64,000 nt of DNA, taken from Cloeon dipterum. Taxonomy: Eukaryota; Arthropoda; Insecta; Ephemeroptera; Baetidae. The position numbers and the translations under genes are program-made. Location of the stretch: assembly GCF_949628265.1 (NCBI RefSeq), contig NC_088788.1, positions 6,634,001 through 6,698,000 on the forward strand, given 5' to 3'. Below, piece by piece: positions 27,545-52,226 of the stretch; position 1 is the first letter of the stretch; each line of letters starts with the position of its first letter. The notes beneath the pieces were generated by a model. It was not told the origin of the DNA and made no database searches. It was given only the letters and a program-made list of their open reading frames with translations.

Positions 27545-27566
27545 GAATAGCGTCACTTATGGCATC
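27545..27566 (+). repeat. Left terminal inverted repeat
   Basis: Contains the 15-bp word GTCACTTATGGCATC at 27,552-27,566. It is the single left-end copy of the motif that occurs six times at the right end. Confidence 0.75.
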
Positions 27567-27984
27567 CTTCTGAATATTTTTATTGTTTTGTTTACAAAAA
27601 TGATAGTAATGAATTCGCTTCATACTTGCTGTGGGCGTCAATGCGGTTGGGGGGGTGTTAAAAAATATTTTTTTGGATTTTTTGGGGTTGGGGTTGGGGG
27701 TGAAAAAAATGGTCAAAGTTGACGAATTTCAGAGGTTGGCATTATCAAGGTGATGGGCGTCATCCAAGCTGGACGGTTGTAAATGGGTGGGGATGGTGCC
27801 AAAACAACCGGTTTTTCGAGTGTGGTATGGGAAGGTGGCAGCACCAGTGGTGTTGTGAGCGCTGCGCGGTAGTGATTACAGACCATCTGGCGCATGCGCC
27901 TTGACATCATTTGTGATTGTGCCATGAGTGCTTTTCTAAAAGTCGCCGCCATTGTTGTCTGAGTTTATGCCCTGAATTTATGCC
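27567..27984. other. Left subterminal region with G-rich runs
   Basis: There is no gene. The plus strand has a run of seven G at 27,649-27,655 and GGGGTTGGGGTTGGGGG at 27,684-27,700, spaced like a potential G-quadruplex. Nothing equivalent is obvious at the right end. Confidence 0.5.
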
Positions 27985-30900
27985 GCGGGCAAAGTTTTAA
28001 GTCCCCGTAGGCGCCCAGCGTTGCATGCAGCAGGGCCAGGTGTATGCCCTGGGCGCCCTGCTTGCTGCCAAGCACCGCTAACTTGGCAGTTGGAGAGTGT
28101 TAGGGGACCGAGCTGGGTGAGGACGGAGTTGGCTGCGTGGCGGGGTGAGTGGAAACAGTTTTAAAATTGAAATATGTGTAAGGCATTGATTTTTGGCCTT
28201 CCTTATTGCGCTATATCATGTATTTTATGGACAGTGACTGATTAACTTTGTTTTCAGGCATGTGAGAGTCCAGACGGCGGCACGAGAGGTGCAGCAGTCA
28301 GTCTGAGACGCCCCGCCAGCAGCCGTGCCAAGGCTGGGAGTCCCCAGGAGCACCTCTGGGGCATGCTGCAGTGAGAGGCGGTTGCCCTGGGCGCCCTGCT
28401 AGCCGCCAAACACTTCGAAGCTGGCAGTTGGAGAGTGGTTGGCGACCGAGCTGGGTGGCGAAGGAGTTGTCTGCGTGTTGGGGTGAGTGAAAACTGTTTT
28501 ACATGTGCAATATGTGTTTGGCATTCAGCTGTGGCCTTCCTTATTGCGCCATGTTGTGTTTTTTGTGCGCTGTGACTGATTCACTTTGATTTCAGGCATG
28601 TCTGAGTCCAGACGGTGGCACGAGAGGTGCAGCAGTCAGTCTGAGACGTCCCGCCAGCAGCCGTGCCAAGGCTGGAGCACCTCTGGGGCATGCTGCAGTG
28701 AGAGGCGGTTGCCCTGGGCGCCCTGCTAGCCGCCAAACACTTCGAAGCTGGCAGTTGGAGAGTGGTTGGCGACCGAGCTGGGTGGCGAAGGAGTTGTCTG
28801 CGTGTTGGGGTGAGTGAAAACTGTTTTACATGTGCAATATGTGTTTGGCATTCAGCTGTGGCCTTCCTTATTGCGCCATGTTGTGTTTTTTGTGCGCTGT
28901 GACTGATTCACTTTGATTTCAGGCATGTGAGAGTCCAGACGGTGGCACGAGAGGTGCAGCAGGCAGTCTGAGACGCCCCGCCAGCAGCCTTGCCAAGGCT
29001 GGGAGTCCCCAGGAGCACCTCTGGGGCATGCTGCAGTGAGAGGCGGTTGCCCTGGGCGCCCTGCTAGCCGCCAAACACCTCGAAGCTGGCAGTTGGAGAG
29101 TGGTTGGCGACCGAGCTGGGTGGCGAAGGAGTTGTCTGCGTGTGGGGTGAGTGAAAACTGTTTTACATGTGCAATATGTGTTTGGCATTCAGCTGTGGCC
29201 TTCCTTATTGCGCCATGTTGTGTTTTTTGTGCGCTGTGACTGATTCACTTTGATTTCAGGCATGTGAGAGTCCAGACGGTGGCACGAGAGGTGCAGCAGT
29301 CAGTCTGAGACGTCCCGCCAGCAGCCGTGCCAAGGCTGGAGCACCTCTGGGGCATGCTGCAGTGAGAGGCGGTTGCCCTGGGCGCCCTGCTAGCCGCCAA
29401 ACACTTCGAAGCTGGCAGTTGGAGAGTGGTTGGCGACCGAGCTGGGTGGCGAAGGAGTTGTCTGCGTGTTGGGGTGAGTGAAAACTGTTTTACATGTGCA
29501 ATATGTGTTTGGCATTCAGCTGTGGCCTTCCTTATTGCGCCATGTTGTGTTTTTTGTGCGCTGTGACTGATTCACTTTGATTTCAGGCATGTCTGAGTCC
29601 AGACGGTGGCACGAGAGGTGCAGCAGTCAGTCTGAGACGTCCCGCCAGCAGCCGTGCCAAGGCTGGAGCACCTCTGGGGCATGCTGCAGTGAGAGGCGGT
29701 TGCCCTGGGCGCCCTGCTAGCCGCCAAACACTTCGAAGCTGGCAGTTGGAGAGTGGTTGGCGACCGAGCTGGGTGGCGAAGGAGTTGTCTGCGTGTTGGG
29801 GTGAGTGAAAACTGTTTTGCATGTGCAATATGTGTTTGGCATTCAGCTGTGGCCTTCCTTATTGCGCCATGTTGTGTTTTTTGTGCGCTGTGACTGATTC
29901 ACTTTGATTTCAGGCATGTGAGAGTCCAGACGGTGGCACGAGAGGTGCAGCAGGCAGTCTGAGACGCCCCGCCAGCAGCCTTGCCAAGGCTGGGAGTCCC
30001 CAGGAGCACCTCTGGGGCATGCTGCAGTGAGAGGCGGTTGCCCTGGGCGCCCTGCTAGCCGCCAAACACCTCGAAGCTGGCAGTTGGAGAGTGGTTGGCG
30101 ACCGAGCTGGGTGGCGAAGGAGTTGTCTGCGTGTGGGGTGAGTGAAAACTGTTTTACATGTGCAATATGTGTTTGGCATTCAGCTGTGGCCTTCCTTATT
30201 GCGCCATGTTGTGTTTTTTGTGCGCTGTGACTGATTCACTTTGATTTCAGGCATGTGAGAGTCCAGACGGTGGCACGAGAGGTGCAGCAGTCAGTCTGAG
30301 ACGTCCCGCCAGCAGCCGTGCCAAGGCTGGAGCACCTCTGGGGCATGCTGCAGTGAGAGGCGGTTGCCCTGGGCGCCCTGCTAGCCGCCAAACACTTCGA
30401 AGCTGGCAGTTGGAGAGTGGTTGGCGACCGAGCTGGGTGGCGAAGGAGTTGTCTGCGTGTTGGGGTGAGTGAAAACTGTTTTACATGTGCAATATGTGTT
30501 TGGCATTCAGCTGTGGCCTTCCTTATTGCGCCATGTTGTGTTTTTTGTGCGCTGTGACTGATTCACTTTGATTTCAGGCATGTCTGAGTCCAGACGGTGG
30601 CACGAGAGGTGCAGCAGTCAGTCTGAGACGTCCCGCCAGCAGCCGTGCCAAGGCTGGAGCACCTCTGGGGCATGCTGCAGTGAGAGGCGGTTGCCCTGGG
30701 CGCCCTGCTAGCCGCCAAACACTTCGAAGCTGGCAGTTGGAGAGTGGTTGGCGACCGAGCTGGGTGGCGAAGGAGTTGTCTGCGTGTTGGGGTGAGTGAA
30801 AACTGTTTTGCATGTGCAATATGTGTTTGGCATTCAGCTGTGGCCTTCCTTATTGCGCCATGTTGTGTTTTTTGTGCGCTGTGACTGATTCACTTTGATT

Positions 30901-31380
30901 TCAGGCATGTGAGAGTCCAGACGGTGGCACGAGAGGTGCAGCAGGCAGTCTGAGACGCCCCGCCAGCAGCCTTGCCAAGGCTGGGAGTCCCCAGGAGCAC
31001 CTCTGGGGCATGCTGCAGTGAGAGGCGGTTGCCCTGGGCGCCCTGCTAGCCGCCAAACACCTCGAAGCTGGCAGTTGGAGAGTGGTTGGCGACCGAGCTG
31101 GGTGGCGAAGGAGTTGTCTGCGTGTGGGGTGAGTGAAAACTGTTTTACATGTGCAATATGTGTTTGGCATTCAGCTGTGGCCTTCCTTATTGCGCCATGT
31201 TGTGTTTTTTGTGCGCTGTGACTGATTCACTTTGATTTCAGGCATGTGAGAGTCCAGACGGTGGCACGAGAGGTGCAGCAGGCAGTCTGAGACGCCCCGC
31301 CAGCAGCCGTGCCAAGGCTGGAGCACCTCTGGGGCATGCTGCAGTGAGAGGCGGTTGCCCTGGGCGCCCTGCTCGCCGGC
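27985..31380 (+). repeat. Left terminal exon-intron array, eleven units
   Basis: One diverged unit (27,985-28,258) is followed by ten units starting at about 28,259, 28,597, 28,923, 29,260, 29,588, 29,914, 30,251, 30,579, 30,905 and 31,242. Each has a GC-rich block of about 213-224 bp ending at a strong donor (GTGAGTG) and an intron-like part of about 113 bp ending in TTTGATTTCAG. Units differ by CATGTGAG or CATGTCTG at the start, a 10-bp insert (GAGTCCCCAG) and one extra T before the donor. A higher-order unit of 991 bp (three units) is repeated three times almost perfectly. The array points inward. Confidence 0.85.
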
Positions 31381-31449
31381 CATGCTTCGGTCTTCATGCT
31401 GGTGGCAGCCATTGGAGGGACTGTGCAGGAATGGAATGTAATGAATGGA

Positions 31450-31483
31450 AATAAATACACAGTTATGAAGTAAAAATTTTATT
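31450..31483. terminator. Convergent polyA signals
   Basis: AATAAA on the plus strand at 31,450-31,455 follows the last array unit. AATAAA on the minus strand (plus-strand TTTATT at 31,478-31,483) lies 50 bp past the methyltransferase stop. The array transcript and the methyltransferase transcript would end tail to tail within about 30 bp. Confidence 0.6.
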
Positions 31484-31532
31484 GAATATGACTCGTGTTG
31501 TTATGAAAGAGGAGAATGAGGCGTACGTTTTG

Positions 31533-34390
31533 TTAGATTTTGAATGCACGTCCGAGTGATTCAGCCAGAAGGGGGGGTACCGCGTTTCCAATCTGTAGAG
31601 CAATATTATTAATTATCAAAGGGCTTTAATGACTTAGATAGGCTACCTGTCGCTGAACTTGAGCTATGGTCCCTTTGAATTTGAAGTTGTCTGGAAAGGT
31701 CTGTGCTCGTGCAAACTCTCGTATTGTCAGGGTTCTATTGTAGATAGGATGGATGATTGTCCCAGTCTTAGAAGCAAGGGTTGGTCTTGTTAAAACTGTC
31801 ATGAAGAGGTCGGACCATCGCAGTCTGCCATAAGCTCCTTTCCAGTCACCATTAGAGCGAGAGGACTTTACCAGTGACTTAGGTGCAAGGGGCATGCCTC
31901 TAATGGAAGTAGAGAAGAGGAAGATTAATTTTAAATAAATTTTAAGCGAAGTTAGCGCAAACGTTTTGAAGCATTCCTCGTGTTCTGACTGAGGTAGGCA
32001 TCGCCAGTCTGACCCTGGCGGGATCATTGTGATCCTTTTTTGGTCATCTGGATTCAGTGACGTGGGGAGCTTATGCAATCGCAAAGTGTCACTGCCATTC
32101 CTCATCTGTGAAGAAATGTTATTAATAGTTTCGGATTGAAATGATTGTTATACTCACTTTGAATTGGAAAGTTGAGTTGATTGAGTTGTAGCTGATTTTG
32201 TTGCCGCTCTCTTGTGGCTCAACATCTGGCAAATCAGCAATGGCGTGGTGCACAGTAACTTTTTGAAAGTAAGCTTCCTGTTTGTCCGTGAATGACTGTA
32301 GGGGGAAGGAAGCTACGAATTAGGCAGTGGTGGAAAGCATGAATTGGTACCAGAGTATGACTGGCTGCTTTGACACTTGTGACTTCCAGACCAGAGTAAT
32401 GGGTGCTTATTGGTGCTGCAGCCAGCCGTCTGCTGTCGAGGGTGCCAAACAGGAAGAACCTAGCAGATTGGGAAATGTTGTTAGTGGGATTAGTGAAGTT
32501 TTGGAGAGGACAACCTAGGGCGTTGTTGAGGTGCGCCGAAATCAGCAGCCTGTAAGACATTGAAGTTGAAATAATAACCCAAGTCTTTGGTTGCCTGCAG
32601 CGCTGCCAGAAAGTGTTTTCCACCATCCTCTGTGATGAAGGATTTGACATTTTCCATCAAGAAGCACTTAGGCCTGAAGTAGGCGACGATTTCCAGAAAC
32701 ACTGGAACTTGTGATTTCTGAAGAATGGCATGAAAGAAACAATGGAAAGTTGATTTTAGTGAATTCTAAGTAGTTACGTTTGTGACTGAGGTGTTGTTGT
32801 TTTTGAATCTATTTAATTTGGAGAATCCTTGGCACGGCGGTCCTCCAATAATCATTTCCACCTCGCCGGTTTGTGGCAGCTTCTGTCCCTTTTTTGTGAA
32901 CAATGCTCCCTATTTTGGATTTAGGAGTATTAATCTTCCTTGGTGTTGTGCTCGAACAAGTTACCGTTTTTAGTTCTTTCAACCAGTCAATGGCTGAACT
33001 TTGGTACACTGTTGCTTGTCTGAAGTTGGCAGCGAAGGATTTGCACGCTGTAGGGTCTGCGTCAACTGCCCAAAGGCAGGTTGTCAGGTGGCTCATCTCC
33101 AACCCTAGGGATAATCCTCCGCAGCCGCAGAACAGATCTAGGCATCGGAGTGGATTTGATTCGAGTGACGGAGTAACACTCTTTGTTGAAGCAAGGGAGC
33201 CATCAAGCATCGAAAGCTGTTAGCATAAATGAATTCAATTACTAATTTTGGGATGGAAGCAGGCAATACAACTTGGTTGGTTTGCATGTCTAGGAGACTG
33301 TTGCAGATGTATGTGGCCGTTCCGTATTGATCGATGTCGGTTGTGTACTTCACTTCCAGTGTGTTATGGAACGAGACGTTAACGACCGCGACGAAAAGTG
33401 CACCAGAAATTTCAGTTTCTGTGAATGGTAGTGAAGATGGTTTTAAAAAAAGCGGAGGGTTTTGTTAAATGAGTATATTCACTGTATGAAGACAAGTGTA
33501 GAAGATTTGCAGGCGATTCTTGCGAACAACTGTTGGTCTCAGGAGGTCTGACAAAGCAAGTGACAGCCAACCGAATCTTTGATGCAGCGAGTACCTGGTC
33601 TGATTTTTTGTCACCGGTTTTTTTGACCTTGATTTTGTCAACGCGGACAACGCGGAGTAATTTTTGTCCAGGCACTTCTGGCAATTGCTCTGATTTGAGT
33701 GTTGTGGCTAAGCATGTCCCCTTCTCAATAGCAACGGACGAGCCGAACCGCACCTGTGACACCATAATGAAACATTTGATAGAGTTTTTGTTGGCCTTTT
33801 GAATATTAAAATGATGTGTTACAGAAGTTAGGCCATTCAATCCGTCCGTTGTGACGTGCGCCAGCATCTTTCGTTTGCTTGAATACCTGCAAGGGCACCA
33901 CTTGTCTTGTTCGTTGAAAATCATTGTTGGTAGGAACGAGGATCCATCAAAACTGCACGAGTGTTTAATCGCTAATTAGGCAAAACTTGTTGTTTAAGTG
34001 TATTATAAGTACTAGAGTCTGCAGAAATATGAAGCATCTGTAGAAGCCTCCTGCATGGATGGTAGAACTCGAATAGTATCACGGAGGGCCCTGTCTTCCA
34101 CGTAATGGCATCCTTTAATTTGGACCAACTCATTTGGCGGTCCGTTCTGGATGAGAGTCTTAGCAACTCGCCTATGGGAATAAATTAGAGCTGCGAGATA
34201 TTGTAATGGTTCGTTCGAAAAGACTCACTCGAGCACTGTGATGTGGTAAATTGCCGGGGACCTGAATGCCTGATCTTCCTCTGCACTGACAATTTTGCAG
34301 AACTGATTGCCAAATTGGGCATATGATCCAAGTGGCCGCATTTTTGAGAAATTGCGTGGCAACAGTGTGTCACTTGAAGCAATTTATGCG
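31533..34390 (-). CDS. DNMT1-type cytosine-5 DNA methyltransferase carried by the element
   Basis: It transfers methyl from S-adenosylmethionine to C5 of cytosine in DNA. The catalytic motifs are in family order and in frame across short introns: motif I DLFCGCGG (about 33,120-33,143), motif IV with the catalytic Cys GGPPCQGFS (32,820-32,846), motif VI ENV (about 32,650), motif VIII QQRPR (about 32,525), a DNMT1-style SDLP-like ADLPDV segment (about 32,230), DNMT1-type GLYGRL/W equivalent AYGRLRW (about 31,830) and motif X GNAVPP (31,571-31,589), stop at 31,533. [14 protein letters not shown] before motif IV closely recalls DNMT1. A BAH-like region lies upstream (33,380-33,780; [17 protein letters not shown]). 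Introns of about 55-60 bp restore the frame each time. I see no CXXC finger or replication-foci domain, so it is shorter than a host DNMT1. The N-terminal start is unresolved (33.9-34.4 kb). Confidence 0.9.
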
Positions 34391-34519
34391 CAGAATTAGT
34401 GTAAGCACGAAGGACAGCCTTGGAGAATTGCAGTAAAAGTCCAAAATTGGAAGGTTGAGCAGAGTTGCTGAAAGTGATTCATGAGATTTTGCAGATGCAC
34501 TCCACGCCCACTGCAGTAA

Positions 34520-37070
34520 CCGTTTGGGCTTGCAGATCAACTGCCACGGCAATGCAGATCCAGTTCAATTTAACTGTCGGAAAAAAAAATTTAATTCCGC
34601 ACCACATCCACTTAATTTTTGTGTAATTATTCGCGGAATAATTCGGGAAGCAATTTTTATCGAAATCGTCGGCCAAAATCCGAAAATTACTGTTTCGGCC
34701 ATGGCGGTTACGCTGCCACGGCAATGCAGATCCGCTGCCAGTTTAGCACTTTGATCGCCAAATAAAGCTGAGTGCGATCCTAGTCGCGTTGCATGGTGTA
34801 ATTTCTAATGTCGCTCAAAAAATTCAAATTTCACTGTTTCATTAAAAATTTTTGTAAAGTTAGTTGAGGAATCACTCGGGAAGCAAGTTGATGTGGAAAT
34901 TTCGCCCAAAAACCGAAAATTACTGTTTCGGCCATGGCGGTTACGCTGCCACGGCAATGCAGATCCAGTTCAATTTAACTGTCGGAAAAAAAAAATTTAA
35001 TTCCGCACCACATCCACTTAATTTTTGTGTAATTATTCGCGGAATAATTCGCGAAGCAATTTTTATCGAAATCGTCGGCCAAAATCCGAAAATTACTGTT
35101 TCGGCCATGGCGGTTACGCTGCCACGGCAATGCAGATCCGCTGCCAGTTTAGCACTTTGATCGCCAAATAAAGCTGAGTGCGATCCTAGTCGCGTTGCAT
35201 GGTGTAATTTCTAATGTCGCTCAAAAAATTCAAATTTCACTGTTTCATTAAAAATTTTTGTAAAGTTAGTTGAGGAATCACTCGGGAAGCAAGTTGATGT
35301 GGAAATTTCGCCCAAAAACCGAAAATTACTGTTTCGGCCATGGCGGTTACGCTGCCACGGCAATGCAGATCCAGTTCAATTTAACTGTCGGAAAAAAAAA
35401 ATTTAATTCCGCACCACATCCACTTAATTTTTGTGTAATTATTCGCGGAATAATTCGCGAAGCAATTTTTATCGAAATCGTCGGCCAAAATCCGAAAATT
35501 ACTGTTTCGGCCATGGCGGTTACGCTGCCACGGCAATGCAGATCCAGTTCAATTTAACTGTCGGAAAAAAAAATTTAATTCCGCACCACATCCACTTAAT
35601 TTTTGTGTAATTATTCGCGGAATAATTCGCGAAGCAATTTTTATCGAAATCGTCGGCCAAAATCCGAAAATTACTGTTTCGGCCATGGCGGTTACGCTGC
35701 CACGGCAATGCAGATCCAGTTCAATTTAACTGTCGGAAAAAAAAATTTAATTCCGCACCACATCCACTTAATTTTTGTGTAATTATTCGCGGAATAATTC
35801 GCGAAGCAATTTTTATCGAAATCGTCGGCCAAAATCCGAAAATTACTGTTTCGGCCATGGCGGTTACGCTGCCACGGCAATGCAGATCCAGTTCAATTTA
35901 ACTGTCGGAAAAAAAAAATTTAATTCCGCACCACATCCACTTAATTTTTGTGTAATTATTCGCGGAATAATTCGGGAAGCAATTTTTATCGAAATCGTCG
36001 GCCAAAATCCGAAAATTACTGTTTCGGCCATGGCGGTTACGCTGCCACGGCAATGCAGATCCGCTGCCAGTTTAGCACTTTGATCGCCAAATAAAGCTGA
36101 GTGCGATCCTAGTCGCGTTGCATGGTGTAATTTCTAATGTCGCTCAAAAAATTCAAATTTCACTGTTTCATTAAAAATTTTTGTAAAGTTAGTTGAGGAA
36201 TCACTCGGGAAGCAAGTTGATGTGGAAATTTCGCCCAAAAACCGAAAATTACTGTTTCGGCCATGGCGGTTACGCTGCCACGGCAATGCAGATCCAGTTC
36301 AATTTAACTGTCGGAAAAAAAAAATTTAATTCCGCACCACATCCACTTAATTTTTGTGTAATTATTCGCGGAATAATTCGCGAAGCAATTTTTATCGAAA
36401 TCGTCGGCCAAAATCCGAAAATTACTGTTTCGGCCATGGCGGTTACGCTGCCACGGCAATGCAGATCCAGTTCAATTTAACTGTCGGAAAAAAAAATTTA
36501 ATTCCGCACCACATCCACTTAATTTTTGTGTAATTATTCGCGGAATAATTCGCGAAGCAATTTTTATCGAAATCGTCGGCCAAAATCCGAAAATTACTGT
36601 TTCGGCCATGGCGGTTACGCTGCCACGGCAATGCAGATCCGCTGCCAGTTTAGCACTTTGATCGCCAAATAAAGCTGAGTGCGATCCTAGTCGCGTTGCA
36701 TGGTGTAATTTCTAATGTCGCTCAAAAAATTCAAATTTCACTGTTTCATTAAAAATTTTTGTAAAGTTAGTTGAGGAATCACTCGGGAAGCAAGTTGATG
36801 TGGAAATTTCGCCCAAAAACCGAAAATTACTGTTTCGGCCATGGCGGTTACGCTGCCACGGCAATGCAGATCCAGTTCAATTTAACTGTCGGAAAAAAAA
36901 AATTTAATTCCGCACCACATCCACTTAATTTTTGTGTAATTATTCGCGGAATAATTCGCGAAGCAATTTTTATCGAAATCGTCGGCCAAAATCCGAAAAT
37001 TACTGTTTCGGCCATGGCGGTTACGCTGCCACGGCAATGCAGATCCAGTTCAATTTAACTGTCGGAAAAC
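34520..37070. repeat. 172/406-bp satellite inside the element
   Basis: A 172-bp unit (GCCACGGCAATGCAGATCC through an A-run to GGCCATGGCGGTTACGCTG) is repeated; some units carry an extra 234-bp block containing TTAGCACTTTGATCGCCAA, giving 406 bp. Starts of the word GCAGATCCAGTTCAATTT are spaced 406, 172, 172, 172, 406, 172, 406 and 172 bp. Copies are almost identical. The array lies between the 5' side of the methyltransferase gene and the 3' end of BEN-like gene 1. Open frames in it are by-products of its periodicity. A promoter, replication or pairing role is possible but not shown. Confidence 0.85.
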
Positions 37071-37260
37071 AATCAGCAACGGAGGGAAAGGGTTAACGTA
37101 GCGTGATTTTGTTTATAACGAAACGTGTTGCACGAACAATTGACAAAATTGTATTAGAGCAATATGGAAATTGCGACAAACTGTAGAAATTAAAATCGTG
37201 TCTGCTGCGAGCAATGCCATGGAATGTTAAAGAAAACAATGAAATTTTTGGAATGGTTAA

Positions 37261-37266
37261 TTTATT
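37261..37266 (-). terminator. PolyA signal of BEN-like gene 1
   Basis: Minus-strand AATAAA about 95 bp past the stop at about 37,357. Confidence 0.5.
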
Positions 37267-37356
37267 TGTGGTAACAAGCAGTGTATCACGCATATGAAAA
37301 TAATTACAATGCAAAATGTAACTGAAGGTAGCTGCCAATCAGTATCGGACATGGAA

Positions 37357-39037
37357 ATCAATCCGAATCGTCTTCGGACTCTGAGGAGCTTGTGTCTTCT
37401 TTGGTAGGTTTGAACTTTGGGCGCCGCTCCGTCATCAGATTGATGAGCGCTTTCTTGGCAATGCGCTTGATGTCGATTTCCTTGATGGTGACCTCTTTCG
37501 ACCTGATGTACCACTTGTACTTGGTGTTGGCAATGATTTTTCCGGCCAGGTCTGCAAAGGAAAGAATTATTCAATTAATTGTAAATTTTTAATCAAGAAA
37601 GACTTACCGAGAAACTCATTCTTCAGCTCTTTGGGAAGTGCCATGGTTGCCTTTTGCCGCCTTGTGCTCCTGGTGCCTCCGTAGCTGAAATACAGGAGGT
37701 TCTCGATCCTGAAGAGGTTGATTGCCACGTGCCGCATCACCGAGTACAAGGATCCGCTGCCATCCTCGTAGCACTCATCGATGTCGTCCTGCTCGATGCC
37801 GATGTTGCCCTTCTTTGAAGTGACACACGATGGAACCTGAAAAGAAATAAAGATTAAAATCATTAATTATTCAGTGTTAGGTATAACTCACCTTTTTTGG
37901 TAGGTTGGGGTCATTCAGCAGAACCTTCTGCCAACCGTGCTCGCTGAGTCGTTGGCCGACAGCGTGCATGTTGGTCCTAGAACAAGAATTGTGAAGTACA
38001 AGCATGACGAGCGTTTCAAATTTGGTCTTACCAGTAAGTGGCCTCTGTGTGCTTGCTGGTTCCAGGCTCAGCGACCGCCTGTTGGAGAGAGTGGACCGTC
38101 TCGAGGTTCTGGTGCTTGAATTCCCTCCGAGCCTTCTTGAGGTGAGCCACTCTTTGATCGTTGACAGCCGCTTCGTCACGCAACGTTTGGTTCTCCTCCA
38201 TGAGACGGGCCTTCTTTGCTTCTAGGGAGGCTACCCGCTGCACGAGTTCCAACTTGGCCGCTGCCAACGCAGCGTTCCTCGTCCTCAGAGCTGAAAATTG
38301 CACAATAGTTATTAAAAGATGTTTCCTCAACAGTAATATAACCTGTAGCTCACCTGCCACTTGCGCAGCAAGTTCGTCGTCCTCTGCCGGCTCCATACGA
38401 GCGTCTGCCATCTCTGGACTGTCCGAAGCTGGAGGTGGTCGGAGAGGTCGCTTCTGACGCTCACTGTCTGTGTGGCTCGAAGTCGACGCACCGGACTGGC
38501 TGTCTTCTTCTTCTGGATAGAAGAGCATTAATGTCATGCAATCTGGGTAGTAAAAATAAGAGTGCTTACCTTGAACGTACTCACTGCCGGAGTATTCGTC
38601 AGACTGTTCTGACTCTTGTTCCTGGCCCTCCTCTTCGCTTGGCTTCTTGTCCTGGAATAGTCGTCGCTTGGTTTGGGGGGGGACAGCTGCGTCAGGCCTG
38701 GTGGGGGACTGTGCTGTGGTTTCTTCGCGGACTGCGTTCGAAAGAAATGAGCGAAATTTAAATACAAATAGGACAACATGCAATTAACTTTTTTACTCAC
38801 CCGACTCTCTTCCTTGACCAAGACCAACTACGACCTCCGTAATCGAATCATGCAGGGGATCACCTGAGTGGAAATAAATGAGAGTTGAGTATTGCAGCTT
38901 ATAGGGGGGGTTGATTTTAACTCACATGACGGACTGTTGTGGACGAAGTCGAGGGCCAGTGGGTCCCTTTCGGGCGCACTCATGTCAATGGTGACCGAGT
39001 CTGCCAGGCCTTCCATGGTTTCCGACTCTTGTTGCAT
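37357..39037 (-). CDS. BEN-like gene 1: acidic and coiled-coil protein
   Basis: Eight exons with consensus splice sites run from the ATG at 39,037 to the TGA at 37,357 (about 39,037-38,927, 38,862-38,800, 38,733-38,573, 38,514-38,355, 38,291-38,032, 37,979-37,893, 37,840-37,608, 37,555-37,357). The N-terminus is acidic and Ser/Glu-rich (SEEEGQEQESEQSDEYSGSE). A strong coiled coil follows (LVQRVASLEAKKARLMEEN). The C-terminal half (IGIEQDDIDECYEDG, then SLYSVMRHVAINLFRIENL and a Lys-rich TMALPKEL) has the spacing of a BEN domain, and the tail is acidic. BEN domains bind DNA or chromatin factors and occur in insect regulators and in viruses. The BEN call is by eye and moderate. A minus-strand exon with a good donor near 39,565 may be its 5' leader. 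Confidence 0.65.
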
Positions 39038-39816: not shown

Positions 39817-39870
39817 TCCTAGAACCGTCTCCCAGTTTCAATTAAAACGAATTAATTAGAAATTACACAT

Positions 39871-41288: not shown

Positions 41289-44200
41289 ATGCAGTCCGAC
41301 AAGGTGAGAATTTTCTGAAATCGAGAATTTCAACAATTTCTTGAGCCATCCTCATAAGGAAAGCAGTTACTAGCGACCTGAAAAAGCATCTCTGCTTGGG
41401 ACTTGCACGTTTCATCGATTTGGACCGTCAATTTTCTAAAAATAATTGTTCTTTCGCTTGTTTGCGATCCGTGAAGTGAATGATTTTTTAAAATTGTCAT
41501 CTGCTTCTAATTTCTCGAACGCAATCAATTGTCAATCTAGCTTTCGCAGTATCATTTAAGAATTTAATTAACTGTTCCGATTTGCGCAGTTCAAGTTCAT
41601 GGTGCTGGTCAGTACTGAGGGTGTTGTGTCACTGAAGAAGATTGAAAAAAATGCGATCCCCCCGACCTTTAATGACGTTGTCAAGAACAAAGATGGCCAT
41701 GACAGTTTGGTTGTCTTCTCTGGCGGTAAGAACATTCCGTTTTGAGAATTAATTCCAAGTAAGGTGCACGAAACAATTCATTCTTTATCAGAGTCTGGCG
41801 CCGCCTTCAGCGTTCTGAGCAAGACGAAGAACGATGCAGTGAAGATCAGCCGCTACCAAACGAAGTTGATTGCAATGCTCGCCTCCCGAGTGTAAGTTGT
41901 CCGTTTACTTGGCAATCGCTGTAAACTCATTTTGATGTGCTGAATGCCGCTGCCAACAAAATTAATGTAATGAACCGAATAAAATAAAATAATTCATTTC
42001 GCACAGTTCTCGGCAGTCTGTTGGCGCCCGGATGACTTCGGAGCCGCCTCTAGAGGTGCCTCTTCCTAAGGTTGTGCCTGCGCCACAACCTACACCTGGC
42101 CAGCAGGTGCCAGCTTTGTCAACTCCTGGCGCCAGCATGGGACAGTTTGGTCGAACAAGTGATTTCCTGCCTCGCGCACTGCTCGATTCCCCTCCAATGG
42201 ACTATGAGTACGCTAGACTGATGAGTCCTGTGCCACCTGGTGGCCAGTGTGGGAGACATCTGCCTTCGAGTGAAGAACCCGCCATCGCGCACTCTACAAA
42301 ATCGGCCGAGTTTGGCAGTGCTAGGCGCGCACACACCCAAGGAAGCCGATCCCTCGTGTCGCGTTCGTTTGTAGTCGAACCAGTAGCGGGATGCAGCGGG
42401 TGGAAGCCGGTCGAGAGGAAGAAGCCTCGTCCGTTGGAAGGCCCTGATGTTGCAATCCCAAGATGGGGCGCCGCTCACAAATCCATCCGAGCCGGCTTCG
42501 ACGAGTCGTCAACAGACACAGCAGAGTCGGATGACTCCTCGTCGCAAGAAATGACAGATGAGGCGGCTGCCAGCCGAGTTTCGAAGCCGCAGGGAAACCA
42601 GGCGGCTATAATTGGTAATAGTCTTTCCGAGGGAATAATTGCGTCTATCTACGGTTCCTCGGCTTCCTGGACTGAAAGTACATTTAAAATTTCCACTTTT
42701 TAGCTCGGACTGATCAACAAACACCTGAGAAGAAAGTGATCAATGACGCGGTGCCTGCGACGCCAGGCAATGAGTGTAAGTAATACCTCCATCTTCCTGG
42801 TGGTTCTTGCAAATTCATTCCGCGATTAAAAGAATGAAACACCAGTTCTAACACGCGTTGTATTTGCATTTCAGTGCCCCATGACAAGTTGCACTTAATC
42901 AAGATTACTTTCTTCTCTATGGAAAGGAAGAATGACATGCCCGACTTCTTCCTCATCGCAGACAGCCAGTCCCCAGGACTGCAGTCGCTTCCTGAGCTGC
43001 ATCGGCTGACCCAGGACAGAAGTGGTGATCCGAAGGTTCTCCGTAAGGCTGAAATCGTCTACAGTGAGTATTGCAACCAAGTAAACTCTCCTTGGAGTGT
43101 GAAGATGCAATTTTTCAGGCCAGCTGTACATCACAACAGAGGCCCTTTATGCACTGATGAATGAACTGCTCTCTGCGGACCAACTGCTAGCACAGTCTGT
43201 GCCACCAGGCGCCACTTTCCTGACATCTACCTTTCAATCCCTGGATATTGATCCTGCAGAGGGAGTGGTATACATCTTTGGCGTGCATGCTGGCACGGAG
43301 TGGCGAGCATTCGACCTGTTCAGCGGGGTACTGAAGAAACACACGAGAAAAGTTTACGAAACATTCACAAAAGCGGGTAGGCAATGTAAAAATAATGACT
43401 GCAGTTTTTTCTTACGGTACCAACTGTCCAATTGCAGCTGGTTCGAGAAGATTTGCCGCCATGGGCGGTTCATGCCTTACTCTGTCCCCTCACAAGAAGG
43501 TGAAGACCACGCCCGTCAAGATCTTGGCTCTTGCCGCCGGCGTGAAAAAGAACCAATATTGCTATTTCTGCGGAAAGAACTTTAGGGGGAACATCATGAG
43601 GCATCTGCGGTTGGGCCACATGCAGGAGCCAGAAATCCAAGATCTGTACGCTGCGAAGCCATCCGCGGAACGAATGAGAGCTTTCTTCAGTGAATTGCGG
43701 CTCCTTGGTAACGAGCAGCACAACGCCACAGTATTGCAGTGCAGGCAGGGCACGCTGGTACCGTCGCGGCGCAGCCAGACAGCCAGCGTTCGCACAACAA
43801 ACAAGTGCCCCTACTGCCTGACACTTCACACGAGCCGCAATTTCAAGAGGCACTTGCAGATTTGCCGCACTCGGCGAGGCGTTGAGGCCCGAGAACCAGC
43901 ACCACCGGTTGACCTGCTCGAGTTGAACCGCATTGAGCAACTCCGGACAAATTTGGACCAGAGCTACACGGTTGCGGTGGACAAAATCCTTAACAACATG
44001 CGTGACAAAAGGATCGCCAGCTTCATCATCACAGATGATCAGCTGGTGATCAGAGTGGTAAAAAATTTTGGCCTGCAGCAGGAAACTGGCAACAACGGAG
44101 TGCAAATCAGCCGGAGGAATATCCGCCTTCTCTACGCTTTGTACACCGCTTTCAAGGTGCATGCAGAAATCCCTGGATTAGTAACCTCGCTGAGGGACAT

Positions 44201-46135
44201 CTGCAAGCGGTCCGTTTGGCAGGGGCTTCCCAGCAACCGACCGGCAAGCAAGACTGACCGAATCATCGAGGTCATCCACACCATCTGCGGCGGTGAGGAA
44301 AACAGGGTAGATTTCAAGCGGCCCAATGACGTCATGACGCTCAGCTCACTCATCAGACAAGTAGCGAGTGAGTTGCAGCAGGAGCGGTTCGAGGACGAAG
44401 CCGAGCGTAAATTGTGGACCGAAGAGTGCCGGTTGCTGATCGAATACCTGGAAACTAAGAGGTACCGTATTTATACGACAACAAGGGCTGCAAAGCAGAA
44501 GAAAAACAGCGAGAAGCTCCACAAGACGCACGTGTCACCCCACGACCTGCAACTCTACAACGCGCACCTTGAAGGAATGTGCAGCTACCACCACATTCAC
44601 CTGCAGAAAGCGAAGAAAGAGTCAGAGTTTGAGTGTCACTACAAGGCGTTGGCAACACATTTGAACCTGGCTTTCTGTTCCTTCAACGCTCGCAGGGCGA
44701 CTGAGGGAAGCTTCGTTACTCTGCAGAACTATGAGGAGAGAAACAATTACTCGGGGAAGAACAGCGATGCGCTATCAAAAGCGCAACAAGAACTGGCCGA
44801 GCGGTACGACGTGCTTACCTCCACCGGGAAAGGGTCTACCAAAGTTCTTTCCCTCTTAAAACCAGAATGGCGCGACTACTTCACAACCCTGTCTGACAAA
44901 GGAGTGCGTGCTGCGGCGGGCATTCCGGAGAGTTGCATTTACCTGTTCGGCACGAAAAACGGAAAACCGATGGACGTGAGAGGGCCGCAGAAAGCAGCTG
45001 CTGAAGCGTGCCTTGCAGAACGACCTGATGACCTCAGGGCGCGTGCCATCAGGACGACCTTCGCGACAACTTTGGGCCAGATGGAGCTTAGCGGACCTTC
45101 AAAGAAGCTCCTGTGCCTGTTGATGGGACACTCAATCACGGTCCACGACCAGTACTACGATCTTCCGACGGGCCTTGGTTTCAATCTGATGGTCGGCAGA
45201 GCACTAGAGATTTTCCAAGATGGTAACATTCAAAAGCACAAGGGAACCACCTTGGAACAGGCAGCAGAGATCAGAACAACCGCTGCCCAACCGGACAATG
45301 CTGACCCGGAAGACGAGTAAGTGTATTTCCCGTAAACAAAACTTGGACAGCCGCCTATGATTTACCGGCTGAAAAAAATCTTCTTCCACGTTTCCCCCTA
45401 TTCCACGTATTAACATTACCTTTCTCCTTCTTCCATCAGCTTCAGCATCGAGGACCTCCAAGATGCCATTCTCTTTGAGGACGTGGATGAGGAAGCCGCA
45501 GAGGCAGAGCTTGCTGTGAAACCACAGCCGACTAAACCACGGCGGGGACGCAAACCCGGGAGCAAGAACAAGGTCAGAGCTCCGAATAAACCGACGCTAC
45601 GCAAGAATACGAAAAAGTATAACAAGGGATCTTGATGGCTGGATGAGTAACTTATAATGATCACTTTAACAGAGCAGCGCAGTCCGAAAGTGAGGCAGAA
45701 GAAACTGAAACGAGCAGCAATGAGTCCGCCGCAGAGACCAACATCTCGGCTGATTCAGGGTAATTTAATTCAACTGACTAGATTCGCAAAGCTAACACCA
45801 CCTTACAGATCCGTGCATGAAACTAGCAATGCAGAAGCGCAGGTACAGGTTCCCACGTTGACGGTGCCACAGAAACGACGCCCAGGCCGACCGCGGGGCT
45901 CCAAGAACAAAACTGTTGCCAAAGGAAAGGAAGCATCTGCCCCTGTGACGGCAGACAGTGACGCTGCTGCTGACATCTCAAACCAGGAAAAACGGTTTCC
46001 CAAGAAGCGCGCAAGTTCCAGCATTACCAGGTATTTCTTATAGAAGTGTTGAAACAAATTCAGTTAACTCAATGTTTCTCCAGGGTTTCAAGTTTGCCTG
46101 AGAAGAAAAGAGGACGCCCAAAGAAAGTTCAGTAA
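41289..46135 (+). CDS. Zinc-finger tyrosine-recombinase-like protein with AT-hooks
   Basis: This is the probable mobilising enzyme. Twelve exons: 41,289-41,303, 41,590-41,725, 41,792-41,891, 42,007-42,614, 42,704-42,775, 42,875-43,063, 43,119-43,376, 43,438-45,316, 45,440 to about 45,573, 45,673-45,759, 45,809-46,030, 46,084-46,135. All phases agree except that the 9/10 junction is unclear. Exon 8 holds a C2H2 finger (CYFCGKNFRGNIMRHLRLGH), a second Cys/His unit (CPYCLTLHTSRNFKRHLQIC) and a C-terminal recombinase-like domain: box I FNARRATEGSF, box II IRTTFATT, MGHSITVH and DQYYDLP with the candidate nucleophile Tyr. Box II has Arg where many recombinases have His. The layout recalls a poorly described animal family with an RHL-type finger and an MGH...YYRLP-like end. 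Exons 9, 11 and 12 give AT-hooks (RRGRKPG, RRPGRPRG, KRGRPKK). About 1,250 residues; exons 2-7 match nothing I know. Confidence 0.82.
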
Positions 46136-46279
46136 TATTCTAACTAGAAGTTTTGTTTGTTGCCAACCAATGCCCAGTTATGTAAGGATCACGCTTTATT
46201 CTCCTTTCATTTGTTACCAATTGTTACTTCCTCCTCTGTTAAATGCTCATGTGAATGGTTGTGCCTAGGAAGTACGTGT

Positions 46280-46285
46280 AATAAA
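46280..46285 (+). terminator. PolyA signal of the recombinase gene
   Basis: AATAAA about 145 bp after the stop at 46,135. Confidence 0.5.
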
Positions 46286-46511
46286 AACCGTCAACCAGTT
46301 ATTTCAAGGATTCACTAGTTTATGTGTCTAAGGTCACCAAGTATGGTCAGTTCAAAATACATTATATATCATTACATGTAAAATAAGGTTATCAAAATTC
46401 ATAAGATTAGTATCAAAAACAGTGTCGAGGTAATTATTCAAAGGGAAGCGTTTCACGCCATATGAAATCACCAATAAGTCCCGAAAAGTTGGAAATAAAT
46501 AAGTAGCATGT

Positions 46512-48704
46512 TTAGAACTGTGCCGGGAGGGGTTCAGCCCTGGTTGGGAGGATTCCCCAAAAGCCAACACCACTCCTGATGAAGTGGGCCCTGGAGCCTA
46601 CCAGGATCACGATCTCCTTGGCACGGCTGATCAGAACATTGACCCTGTTTGGCTCCCTCAAGAAGCCCACCCCATGATCACGCGCGTTGTCTTCTCCACG
46701 GTCGCTTCGTACCAGTGACACCACAATTACAGGCCGCTCCTGGCCTATCACCTCGTCCGCAGTGAAGACAGTGATGTCACGGGGGAGCTTCTCCCGGAGC
46801 ACCGCCACCTGAAACATAGACGAAGAATTATCAACATTGCACCACTAGTTACAATTCGGCACACAACATACCTGCTTACGGTACGGTGCAAGCACCGTAA
46901 CCTGTTGGGGGGGGATGCACCGGCACAGCGAGTCCACCACGGACACCACAGCGTCGGCTTCCACTACGTTGAAGAGGGACCTGGTGAGGGGGTCGCGTTG
47001 CATTGCACCATCAATGTCCACCCAGCGGATGGCGCTCTGGTTCGCGTCGAGTCCCAGTCTCTCCAGCCCGAAACGCAGCAGCAGCAGGCTGTTGGAGGGG
47101 AGGCTAGCTGGGCCAGGGATCTGAAATGCAAAACAAAAGTCATAACAAAACAGTCACTCGAGCATGTCATGCTTACCATCAGTCCGTTGTAAAACAGGCA
47201 GGAGACCTCCCTCACCAACTTCTCGTGGGCCCGATAGTTGAGACGCAGCATCACACCAAGCCCCTCCTTCGGCCTCAATCTGAAACATGATTAGGTAATT
47301 ACCGTTCCATCCAGCCTCAATGCTACTTACCCATCATCCTCGAAGAATCCACTGTCGGCGGCCAAATCGAACAGACTGTACTTGCCATGCATGCTTTCGG
47401 CCACCTTGCTGAAACAGCGTGGCCGAAGCTGCTTCCGGTCCCCGGCAAGCACAGTCTGCACAGGCTCTCCATTCGCCGTCAGAGCCGCAAAGGCCTCTCC
47501 CAGCTTGATGTAGGCTGCCTCGTCCAGCTGAAAAAAAAATGAAATGTAATCAAAACAAAATTGTACAATTGATTAAAACTTACCAGCAACAGAAGGGGCG
47601 GTGGATTCCTCTCACCAAGGGTCAGCCCGATGCGAGCAATGGCGATGGGGGTCCCGATGACCACGCTGGTGGTGATGAGGTGTTGCATCCGGGAAGCTCG
47701 CTGCGAGATGTCTCTGAGGGGGTCGGTCCCCTTCACGTGCTCATGCTCCGAGTAGAGGCGCACCAGTTGCTCGCTCCTCATTCCCAACCGCAACAACCTT
47801 TCGGCGGTCGACCGAACCCCCAGGTTGGACGGGACCACGTAGTAGATGCTGAAAACAAAGGAAAATCAATTAGTTAACAAGTTACACAAACCAATAAGAT
47901 CTCACAGAGCGTCAAGTGTCCTCTTCTCCTTGTGGTGGGTAGCCAACTGAAGCACGACCTCGTCCAAGGTTGCGGATTTTCCCGTTCCTGGGGGGCCGAC
48001 CAGCAGGTATGGGACGTGGGGCCGCCTGTGCTCCAGGATCTCCACCACAGCCCTCCTCTGCTCCTGGTTGAGCATCTCGTCCATGAATCCCTCTCCTCGC
48101 TTCAGCGCTGCAAGATGGTGGTCGTCAACCTGCGGCAGAAACAATTGGGTCAGTAAAGCTATCAACACACAATCAAAGTGATTTCTCACCAGTGGGATGC
48201 CGCACTCCTTTGTTCCCAAGCCACCTCCCTGGAAGTAGTCGGCAAGGGCACTCAATCCATCGACGGAGCCGGTGACCCTAAGACGGTGCCCCACCAAGGT
48301 TGGCAGGAACTGCAGGCGGCACCGCTGGTTCCACAGGGCAACAAGGAGCTCCCGGTCCAACAGCTTGGCTCCGTCACCCTCGGTGAGCGTAACTGTCCCA
48401 CGGTCATGGCTCCTCACCAGCATCTTGCCTGCAGTTGCAACAATTACACCTAAGCAGTCAATTAAAAAAATGATACGTACCACCAACGGGCCTGCCGCCA
48501 ATAACCTCGAGCTGACACCACTCGCCAACAGTTGCTTCGAGGCAGACGTAGACTTCAGGTGTCGGCTCCACTTCCAGTCGTGCCTCCCATACAGCTCGTC
48601 GGTCTGGTCGGCCTTGGTCAATGCATGTCACCTTGGCAATGCCACCAGCTCTGTCCAGGAGGGTCTCCAGCTTCGCGAGGTCGAGGTACAGGCCGGTGAT
48701 GACG
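46512..48704 (-). CDS. Superfamily 1 helicase, UPF1/MOV10 type
   Basis: An ATP-driven nucleic-acid helicase. Eight exons are visible (about 48,704-48,485, 48,428-48,190, 48,129-47,908, 47,850-47,584, 47,529-47,331, 47,278-47,177, 47,120-46,874, 46,808-46,512). Motifs in order: Q-like LNQEQRRAVVEIL, Walker A GPPGTGKS (about 47,975-47,998), Walker B LDEAAY, motif III GDRKQLRP, motif IV RLNYRAHEKL, motif V TADEVIGQERP followed by VIVVSLVRSD, and motif VI EPNRVNVLISRAK. All are intact. This pattern belongs to SF1B helicases such as UPF1, IGHMBP2 and MOV10/Armitage. The first exon seen starts at an acceptor, so the N-terminus is upstream, either in the terminal array or in the small gene at 51.1-51.8 kb. 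A role in element replication or RNA handling is inferred. Confidence 0.88.
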
Positions 48705-48821
48705 CTGGAGAAAAACAATTATTTCAAAAGGATACCACAACAATCGTTTCCCCACATATCATACATCCCCCGCAAAATGAAAATTGCTCAGCAACCATTT
48801 CAGCTACCACCTAAATGCACA

Positions 48822-48825
<4 letters not shown>

Positions 48826-48860
<35 letters not shown>
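48826..48860. repeat. (CA)n microsatellite
   Basis: About 17 CA dinucleotides between the helicase and the right array. Confidence 0.95.
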
Positions 48861-48861
<1 letters not shown>

Positions 48862-49050
48862 ACATTGGCACACTGGGTTAAATCATTTTCAGCAAATCGT
48901 ACAGGAGTAAAACAATTTCACATTTCCACCTGCTAAACGTTAGGTCACGCAGAAAAGCATTACCACTCAGTCGGTCAACCACAAGCAAAAGGAACACCGC
49001 AGGCAAGCACACCGGGAGGGCACGCTGCTATCGAACAGCTCGTACTAACC
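48861..49050. other. Spacer between helicase and right array
   Basis: There is no exon I can support. On the minus strand this is the intron-like stretch after the innermost array exon, whose donor would be GGCAGG followed by GTTAGT near 49,048. Confidence 0.4.
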
Positions 49051-50934
49051 CTGCCTTCCTCCCAACTCCTTCGCCACCCAGCTCGGTCGCCAACCACTCT
49101 CCAACTGCCAGCTTCGAGGTGTTTGGCGGCTAGCAGGGCGCCCAGGGCAACCGCCTCTCACTGCAGCATGCCCCAGAGGTGCTCCTGGGGACTCCCAGCC
49201 TTGGCAAGGCTGCTGGCGGGGCGTCTCAGACTGCCTGCTGCACCTCTCGTGCCACCGTCTGGACTCTCACATGCCTGAAATCAAAGTGAATCAGTCACAG
49301 CGCACAAAAAACACAACATGGCGCAATAAGGAAGGCCACAGCTGAATGCCAAACACATTTTGCACATGCAAAACAGTTTTCACTCACCCCACACGCAGAC
49401 AACTCCGTCGCCACCCAGCTCGGTCGCCAACCACTCTCCAACTGCCAGCTTCGAGGTGTTTGGCGGCTAGCAGGGCGCCCAGGGCAACCGCCTCTCACTG
49501 CAGCATGCCCCAGAGGTGCTCCTGGGGACTCCCAGCCTTGGCAAGGCTGCTGGCGGGGCGTCTCAGACTGACTGCTGCACCTCTCGTGCCACCGTCTGGA
49601 CTCTCACATGCCTGAAATCAAAGTGAATCAGTCACAGCGCACAAAAAACACAACATGGCGCAATAAGGAAGGCCACAGCTGAATGCCAAACACATATTGC
49701 ACATGCAAAACAGTTTTCACTCACCCCACACGCAGACAACTCCTTCGCCACCCAGCTCGGTCGCCAACCACTCTCCAACTGCCAGCTTCGAGGTGTTTGG
49801 CGGCTAGCAGGGCGCCCAGGGCAACCGCCTCTCACTGCAGCATGCCCCAGAGGTGCTCCAGCCTTGGCACGGCTGCTGGCGGGACGTCTCAGACTGACTG
49901 CTGCACCTCTCGTGCCACCGTCTGGACTCAGACATGCCTGAAATCAAAGTGAATCAGTCACAGCGCACAAAAAACACAACATGGCGCAATAAGGAAGGCC
50001 ACAGCTGAATGCCAAACACATTTTGCACATGCAAAACAGTTTTCACTCACCCCACACGCAGACAACTCCGTCGCCACCCAGCTCGGTCGCCAACCACTCT
50101 CCAACTGCCAGCTTCGAGGTGTTTGGCGGCTAGCAGGGCGCCCAGGGCAACCGCCTCTCACTGCAGCATGCCCCAGAGGTGCTCCAGCCTTGGCACGGCT
50201 GCTGGCGGGGCGTCTCAGACTGACTGCTGCACCTCTCGTGCCACCGTCTGGACTCTCACATGCCTGAAATCAAAGTGAATCAGTCACAGCGCACAAAAAA
50301 CACAACATGGCGCAATAAGGAAGGCCACAGCTGAATGCCAAACACATATTGCACATGCAAAACAGTTTTCACTCACCCCAACACGCAGACAACTCCGTCG
50401 CCACCCAGCTCGGTCGCCAACCACTCTCCAACTGCCAGCTTCGAAGTGTTTGGCGGCTAGCAGGGCGCCCAGGGCAACCGCCTCTCACTGCAGCATGCCC
50501 CAGAGGTGCTCCTGGGGACTCCCAGCCTTGGCAAGGCTGCTGGCGGGGCGTCTCAGACTGCCTGCTGCACCTCTCGTGCCACCGTCTGGACTCTCACATG
50601 CCTGAAATCAAAGTGAATCAGTCACAGCGCACAAAAAACACAACATGGCGCAATAAGGAAGGCCACAGCTGAATGCCAAACACATATTGCACATGTAAAA
50701 CAGTTTTCACTCACCCCACACGCAGACAACTCCTTCGCCACCCAGCTCGGTCGCCAACCACTCTCCAACTGCCAGCTTCGAGGTGTTTGGCGGCTAGCAG
50801 GGCGCCCAGGGCAACCGCCTCTCACTGCAGCATGCCCCAGAGGTGCTCCAGCCTTGGCACGGCTGCTGGCAGGACGTCTCAGACTGACTACTGCACCTCT
50901 CGTGCCACCGTCTGGACTCTGACATGCCTGAAAA
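49051..50934 (-). repeat. Right terminal exon-intron array, six units
   Basis: Inverted counterpart of the left array: units of about 326-337 bp on the minus strand, exon-like blocks starting at about 50,934, 50,600, 50,262, 49,935, 49,609 and 49,272, each preceded by a TTTGATTTCAG-type acceptor and followed by a GTGAGTG donor. The outermost unit has a different upstream sequence (a CA-rich tract). Some units are 213 bp and open in the frame starting ACQSPDGGTRG or ACESPDGGTRG; others carry the 10-bp insert and lose that frame. The array reads inward, towards the helicase gene. Confidence 0.85.
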
Positions 50935-50944
50935 TAAATCCATT

Positions 50945-50975
50945 CGGACACACATACACACACACACACTCACAC
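50945..50975. repeat. CA-rich microsatellite
   Basis: Interrupted CA repeat just outside the outermost unit of the right array. Confidence 0.85.
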
Positions 50976-51098
50976 ATCTGGGAAAAGAACAATTGGTTAT
51001 ATTATAATTAAACAAATTATGCTGCATGCCTCCAGACATCCTTCAATCACCTGCCAGGTAAAGAAACTGAAAGTACAACCCTTCGTCTACAATCCTAC

Positions 51099-51794
51099 CT
51101 TGGCAAGAGCATTGATCGATCCCCACGGAATACCCAATTTTCGATCCCTAGCAGATTCAGGTGATCTTCGTACCTACATAACACCATTCATGTCTTTTAA
51201 AATTGAAATACGTCTCCCATGACCACTTACGAATACTCCAGTTCCGATTCGGCATCCTTTACGTACGCCGGAATCATTGCCAAATCGTGCATCCTAATGC
51301 TACGGCGCGATACAAATAGATGCCGGCCCTCGTGCGTTGTCCGGACCCTGGAATCCAGGGTATGATATTGGTTTTGTCTTTCTCGGCACCTCCGGTTCAG
51401 ATCGCGGTAGCCCTGCTGGCTTTCCGGGAGCCGCCTGAAACGATTTAGCATGCTAAATAACCCACCCATCTACAAATACATTCCATCTACTTACATTCCC
51501 AAACCGGACCCCTCGATTTTCCCAATCTGCACTGCAGAAAAACAACCAGGGAGCACCTGTAAACATTCCAAAACCAATGTCACCCTTCAATTACTAACCT
51601 CCATCAGCTAATACACTACAAACAGCATGCAAATAATCAGGGACAACACTTACCGCACTGAAACCAGGCAGCCGCTCGTTCGCGCATCGCCTCTTGTCCA
51701 ACTCATCCTTCTGTATCGCGTCCTTCACACGACTCAGGTCGAACCTCCAGTCCAGGGAGCACTGATCACGCCCGTTTTCCATTCCAAAAAGCAC
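51099..51794 (-). CDS. Small right-end gene, possibly the helicase N-terminus
   Basis: Four exons with good splice sites join in frame: from an ATG at 51,794 or 51,782 (MENGRDQCSLDWRFDLSRVK) to about 51,655, a short exon ending near 51,500, about 51,436-51,231, and 51,151-51,099. The product is about 150 residues, rich in Arg and charged (RDLNRRCRERQNQYHTLDSR; RHLFVSRRSIRMHDLAM). The last exon ends in a donor (GCCAAG followed by GTAGGA) rather than a stop, so the transcript should continue into the array or the helicase; its phase 0 fits the outermost array exon. I recognise no domain. It may be the N-terminal part of the helicase or a separate small protein. Confidence 0.5.
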
Positions 51795-51799
51795 TCAAA

Positions 51800-52086
51800 A
51801 CACACGAAATAATAAAAAATGCACCCGCACGCGGTCTAAAAACGCTGACAACGAAGCACAAAATGGTGGTGCGGATGCCGATGCTCAGTTGTTTCAGCGA
51901 TGCAGCACCCACCTCCAACTCGGTGATCCCGTATAAAAAAACCGGTTACGATTATTGCGCAACGGTTCTTCCGGCCGGTGAACGCGTCGCGAACCGAAAT
52001 AGTAGCTCCGCCCAGTACCGCCCCACCACAGGCCACGCCTAAGTGCTGCCAACCTAAGAAATCGTTTGTTTATGTATTTTTCGCGT
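51800..52086 (-). promoter_or_regulatory. GC-rich promoter candidate at the right end
   Basis: A GC-rich stretch (for example CCGGCCGGTGAACGCGTCGC) upstream of the small right-end gene, between it and the 15-bp motif cluster. It probably drives the leftward transcript through the small gene and array into the helicase. Confidence 0.4.
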
Positions 52087-52212
52087 GATGCCATAAGTGA
52101 CTGTCACTTATAGCATCTTTTCCGTCACTTATGGCATCTTTGATAGGATGCTATAAGTGACAGAATTTTAACAACAGATGCCACAAGTGACAGAAATGAT
52201 GCTATAAGTGAC
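52087..52212. promoter_or_regulatory. Cluster of six 15-bp motifs, candidate recombinase sites
   Basis: Copies of GTCACTTATRGCATC or its reverse complement lie at 52,087-52,101 (rev), 52,103-52,117 (fwd), 52,124-52,138 (fwd), 52,147-52,161 (rev), 52,177-52,191 (rev, one variant base) and 52,198-52,212 (rev, part of the right terminal repeat). Copies 1 and 2 face each other across 1 bp. Copies 3 and 4 face each other across an 8-bp spacer (TTTGATAG), the geometry of a loxP/FRT-type core. A recombinase-binding role is inferred. Confidence 0.7.
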
Positions 52213-52226
52213 ACTACTCAAATACT

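Follow-up and report, generated by a model that had tools for sequence, protein, structure and literature searches.

What kind of genetic unit lies in the 64,000-nucleotide stretch of the Cloeon dipterum genome that we analyzed (hereafter the window; C3:6634001-6698000) is a question raised by a block of about 25 kb in which a recombinase gene stands beside genes for a cytosine methyltransferase and a helicase. The original prediction, made from the letters of the window, had called this block a giant cargo-carrying tyrosine-recombinase element of an undescribed class and had drawn it as a discrete unit at 27545..52219. We searched the genome (190,111,064 bases, 10 contigs) for copies, ends, and related elements. 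The element is very probably a self-mobilizing tyrosine-recombinase DNA transposon with a recombinase, a DNMT1-type methyltransferase, and a UPF1/MOV10-type helicase as its conserved genes.

The 24.7-kb unit is real and mobile, and it has dispersed recently. At least five near-identical copies (A to E, copy A being the one in the window) are present on contigs C1 (two copies), C2, C3, and C5. A search with the left end gave 100% matches at four more loci besides that of copy A (C5:31.8 Mb, C1:5.7 Mb, C1:37.8 Mb, and C2:34.4 Mb), and the right-end search matched at these four loci too. Over a central piece of 9.5-9.9 kb each, the four other copies differ from copy A by 7, 10, 10, and 27 bases, and the flanking sequences of all five are unrelated. 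Together with two related unoccupied sites, these flanks bound copy A (no strand assigned) at 27536..52224, between CT cores at 27534-27535 and 52225-52226; the discrete unit of the original prediction is thereby retained, with corrected coordinates. In copy A, TACT is common to the element and the target, leaving the exact cut ambiguous by two bases. One unoccupied site is a paralogous sequence (L042, GATATTACTGGAATATTTTGTG) ~14.6 kb past the right end of copy A, and the other is a repeat of the target of copy B that adjoins this copy; both indicate clean insertion. The unrelated flanks and the unoccupied sites count against both an assembly join and a host gene cluster. Neither of the outcomes named at the outset as telling against a mobile unit, conserved synteny without the ends or an assembly join, was seen, and joint recurrence of the recombinase and helicase at unrelated loci, within ~25 kb and with matching ends, was found inside this genome, in the five copies and in a distant second family (see below).

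Lists of old and related copies from the genome searches are lower bounds. Among the matches listed, older broken copies are located at C2 35.7-37.1 Mb and C5 1.05-1.2 Mb, and in one of these (C2:35676658-35702993), the two ends are still recognizable and each of the three genes has a match, all in a stretch of ~26 kb. A relative of ~8.8 kb (L041, C2:36390700-36400500) is far shorter than the full element and contains a helicase segment three times in tandem.

The left end (27534..27566, + strand) consists of the core CT, two variable bases, ATAAACAG, and one copy of the 15-bp motif GTCACTTATGGCATC at 27552-27566, and the right end (52087..52226, - strand) of six motif copies in both orientations followed by CTCAAATACT. 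With up to two mismatches allowed, the motif has seven matches in the window, all at the element ends: one at 27552 and six between 52087 and 52212. It lies 12-16 bp inside the ends, and the outermost 12-16 bp form no inverted repeat. This arrangement replaces the 22-bp terminal inverted repeats that had been postulated. Repeats that reach the very ends and a target duplication, the classic features of terminal-inverted-repeat transposons, are both lacking, with one motif on the left against six on the right.

Left ends were read in eight of the copies matched (A to E, L041, L044, and L008) and right ends at 10 of the loci matched (A to E, L041, L043/L015, L018, L019, and L021). The CT core is present in all eight left ends; the two variable bases after it are CT in four copies and CC, TG, TT, and GT in the others, and next comes ATAAACAG, which is replaced by a variant in L008. 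CT directly precedes the flank in 10/10 right ends, the boundary in L019 and L021 being set by analogy and L015 and L018 having their nearest flanking bases in common. The sequence shared at insertion is CT in most copies, and the two unoccupied sites reveal no longer target duplication. Both ends were read in six copies; comparison of the variable bases with the two bases that open the right flank of the respective copy shows a difference in A, D, E, and L041 and identity in B and C. Being mostly unlike this flank, the variable bases are apparently carried along with the element, and they appear to be a short spacer from the previous site, comparable to the coupling sequence of tyrosine-recombinase elements. 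After insertion of Tn916, variable coupling bases lie beside one end; Tn916-type transposons, which we compare here from general knowledge, share this trait with the present element but are bacterial and conjugative. The end structure fits tyrosine-recombinase chemistry.

The presumptive mobilizing enzyme is encoded at 40662..45632 on the + strand (P0004, LOC135941083, 1359 aa), with a long exon stretch at 43434-45317. This protein matched the tyrosine-recombinase catalytic fold, in agreement with the original prediction of a zinc-finger tyrosine-recombinase-like gene. Two zinc-finger-like motifs were recognized by eye (43560-43619 and 43806-43865, + strand), with Cys and His residues invariant among four sequences. 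From familiar motifs on the + strand, we take the likely catalytic residues to be an Arg within 44682-44708, a Lys within 44826-44846, and a His and a Tyr within 45120-45167, all placed by eye, together with an Arg within 45042-45071, where Arg replaces the usual His of HxxR. The catalytic fold and residues, along with insertion that leaves a short shared core only, are the general features of tyrosine-recombinase DNA transposons. Pfam gave only weak matches to the recombinase, all under the curated cut-offs, and neither DUF3504 nor DUF3435 matched any of the proteins P0001-P0005 at E up to 1, in a profile search of limited reach among recombinases. The gene starts ~13 kb from the left end and finishes ~6.6 kb from the right end. 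Homologs outside C. dipterum are few, namely, one metagenome protein (41%) and one protein at 23%. Endogenous nimaviruses also have zinc-finger tyrosine recombinases, so a wider arthropod group may include the one described here.

The other two genes were also identified as predicted. The multi-exon DNMT1-type cytosine methyltransferase gene (31533..34400, - strand, 5' limit approximate) includes a catalytic domain at ~31533-33150; an exon model was built for the gene, which is supported by a Pfam DNA_methylase match and a match to DNMT1 in the PDB (E 6e-65). Upstream of the methyltransferase, inspection by eye hinted at BAH domains, which Pfam did not bear out (0 families for 33412-33975). 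The SF1B helicase gene (46512..51794, - strand) yielded a UPF1-like match and comprises helicase exons at 46512-48770 and a conserved short block at 51597-51794 that is taken as its 5' end. With the helicase protein as query, the matches were a single C. dipterum protein plus three distant proteins at 27-30%.

This genome also contains a second family. Its members are ~33 kb long and carry a recombinase 36-52% identical to that of the first family; they share its three-gene set, and their ends are built similarly. Among the matches listed, second-family recombinase loci are found at C4:6.65 Mb, C2:36.87 Mb, C2:36.20 Mb, C5:1.13 Mb, and C2:36.42 Mb; at four of these five, a helicase match lies no more than 14 kb from the recombinase, and at the C5 locus, there is a 49-residue piece ~13 kb away. 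Two helicase places (C2:34499296 and C2:36457753) have no recombinase match nearby among the matches listed. The C4 unit, the one in which the methyltransferase was checked, extends from ~6631080, where matches to six other copies start, to 6664127, where matches to four others stop, and contains stop-free matches for 5/6 methyltransferase and 7/8 helicase exon pieces. When 335 open reading frames (ORFs) of at least 45 aa from the first element were compared with the C4 unit (E 0.01), the matches fell mainly within the three genes, on the coding or the opposite strand, the remainder being a few isolated marginal matches. The two second-family copies read have CC as their core, and three positions further in, a single base varies (TCT vs TCA). 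The motif of the second family, GTCACGAAGAGACTC (up to three mismatches), is present as one copy at its left and six at its right end, with seven more clustered in the interior. The end motifs of both families are likely recombinase binding sites. Old copies of both families, among the matches listed, lie mostly in C2:35.7-37.1 Mb and C5:1.05-1.2 Mb.

Since the three genes are kept across the two families although their order and directions differ, the set is, judging by sequence, old and stable, and since both families have the same three genes, the methyltransferase and helicase seem to belong to the conserved core of the element and not to a random cargo, which amends its description as cargo-carrying. 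The ratios of nonsynonymous to synonymous substitution rates (dN/dS) point the same way. For the recombinase, the value is 0.106 (Nei-Gojobori, against an older copy, 579 codons, one stop codon dropped); for the methyltransferase, 0.103 (262 codons, against L044) and 0.314 (84 codons, against L041), with saturation against the second family; and for the helicase, 0.128 (508 codons, against L043), 0.265 (505 codons, against L041, stop dropped), and 0.173 (432 codons, against the second family). All three genes thus fall at roughly 0.1-0.3, well under 1, which indicates protein-level constraint on each; these values are rough because some comparators are partly decayed copies and silent sites are near saturation in distant comparisons.

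Tandem arrays of a 327-bp unit lie near both ends in inverted orientation, with ~10 units on the left (28045..31378, + strand) and ~5.6 on the right (49063..50933, - strand); on the right, the array is apparently enclosed by the helicase gene region, with the block at 51597-51794 on one side and the exons from ~48770 on the other. Array seed counts (+/-) are 10/6 in copy A, 15/10 in B, 13/12 in C, 16/12 in D, and 13/11 in E, B to E being read from the opposite strand. The donor-like hexamer GTGAGT is repeated 10 times in the left array and five times in the right one. One array unit, when translated, has a stop in all three sense frames, in one of them only at the second codon, and antisense frames of 130 aa are present in three left-array units. 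Of the inward-facing terminal exon arrays envisaged in the original prediction, the inverted arrays hold, and coding by their units is neither demonstrated nor ruled out. The predicted internal satellite was recovered by a tandem-repeat scan as a 172-bp unit at ~34541..37000 (no strand). In a domain scan of all 29 ORFs of at least 110 aa in 31379-49060, no BEN domain was detected, nor was one found in P0004, which leaves the two BEN-like genes proposed earlier without support. The same scan yielded no reverse transcriptase, protein-primed DNA polymerase, retroviral-type integrase, or capsid, no profile match to a DDE transposase, and no viral structural or replication domains or viral core genes by Pfam.

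Around the element, four minus-strand frames overlap 129-bp tandem repeats (9684-11054, 16592-17503, 52980-54479, and 60312-61817); the element sits among these frames, and sequence from its flanks is found again at C3:6693306 and C3:6700821. A 24-bp tandem repeat (~25 copies) occupies 63392-64000 and continues past the window end.

How does this element relate to known systems? It works like a Crypton, a Starship, or Tn916, and it matched no Crypton or Starship family profile. A rather unlikely alternative is that it is a giant Crypton, an animal CryptonA or CryptonI that acquired the methyltransferase and helicase. According to the accessible portion of one report, Cryptons are recombinase-encoding DNA transposons without reverse transcriptase, animal Cryptons had no terminal repeats found, and a circular route has been proposed for them (PMC3212892); the present element likewise leaves only a very short shared sequence. 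It differs in its size of 25-33 kb, the motif clusters at its ends, and the missing DUF3504 match. The recombinase is the sole gene of Cryptons (accompanied by a peptidase in some fungi and oomycetes), whereas both families here possess the methyltransferase and helicase. In the same portion of that report, animal Cryptons are described without a C-terminal domain beyond the recombinase (PMC3212892), in contrast to the two further genes shared by the present families.

The fungal Starships are likewise giant elements mobilized by a tyrosine recombinase with other genes aboard, but, as far as an excerpt of the source goes, they are led at the 5' end by a DUF3435 captain gene and vary greatly in cargo (PMC12134995). 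The recombinase gene described here is not at an end and has no DUF3435 match, and the three-gene set is common to two families. A cytosine methyltransferase inside a mobile element has precedents in SymbioDIRS-Dnmt3 and SymbioLINE-Dnmt of dinoflagellates and KnitGypsy-Dnmt3 of a charophyte, with SymbioDIRS also having a tyrosine recombinase; in the part of the source available, these are retrotransposons (PMC5890265), unlike the present element, which has no reverse transcriptase in the ORFs scanned and a methyltransferase of the DNMT1 type. The lack of reverse transcriptase also separates it from DIRS, Ngaro, and PAT elements, and the lack of the polymerase, integrase, and capsid separates it from Polintons/Mavericks.

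Descent from, or kinship with, an endogenous large DNA virus is very unlikely. Among such viruses, the endogenous nimaviruses of crustaceans are large arthropod elements that integrate by a zinc-finger tyrosine recombinase, but in the available extract, they target telomere repeats or 28S rDNA (PMC10871703), whereas the present element is inserted at CT sites. The Pfam scan of the 29 ORFs gave no viral domain, the two being set apart here without a direct comparison of nimaviral proteins. A scan of viral contigs gave 72 pattern matches and 0 confirmed relatives, a viral fold library contained nothing that matched at or below E 0.001 (a phage integrase came closest, at 3.7e-3), and sharing between the two families is largely confined to the three genes. 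If nested elements formed a composite that another enzyme moved, with the recombinase gene as a passenger, this could explain why the unit contains arrays and a satellite and why array copy number varies between copies. This scenario is scarcely credible in view of the absence of DDE transposase, integrase, and reverse transcriptase profiles in the ORFs scanned, the retention of the recombinase, methyltransferase, and helicase by two families, and an end structure that fits the recombinase. Segmental duplication of a host gene block, suggested by the repetition of the block in the genome, is already contradicted by identical ends with unrelated flanks and by the unoccupied sites, and can be dismissed.

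For the favored self-mobilizing transposon, the following route can be proposed. The recombinase would bind the 15-bp motifs at both ends and join the ends to release the element, probably in circular form, for insertion at a CT dinucleotide elsewhere. The two-base spacer carried with the element would remain next to the left end, on its inner side, in a manner resembling the Tn916 coupling sequence. As putative helpers, the methyltransferase would target the DNA of the element itself, and the helicase would either ease replication or interfere with small-RNA silencing. MOV10-type helicases act in small-RNA pathways. The observed/expected CpG ratio (0.81 in the element, 0.67 in the second family, and 0.78-1.09 in the flanks) is uneven along the element; we did not use it as evidence, and it decides nothing between the silencing-control and replication-help readings.

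In the literature searched, with bioRxiv and most subscription journals outside its range, no animal recombinase DNA transposon with a DNMT1 and a helicase is described. The original view of an undescribed giant tyrosine-recombinase class is supported in this sense, by the literature search and the absence of family-profile matches, not by phylogeny. A plausible but tentative extension is that the two families represent a superfamily of their own among the tyrosine-recombinase transposons of animals. The DNMT1 and MOV10-like helicase would be fixed parts of it, the element's own copies of two host genome-defense activities, DNA methylation and a small-RNA-pathway type of helicase, by which it would control its silencing or copying. 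A recently active insect element with a constrained DNMT1 and helicase in two distant lineages offers a direct test of whether transposons exploit host silencing tools. The three-gene signature should make such elements findable in other animals, where they may sit unnoticed among "uncharacterized" gene models, as in C. dipterum.

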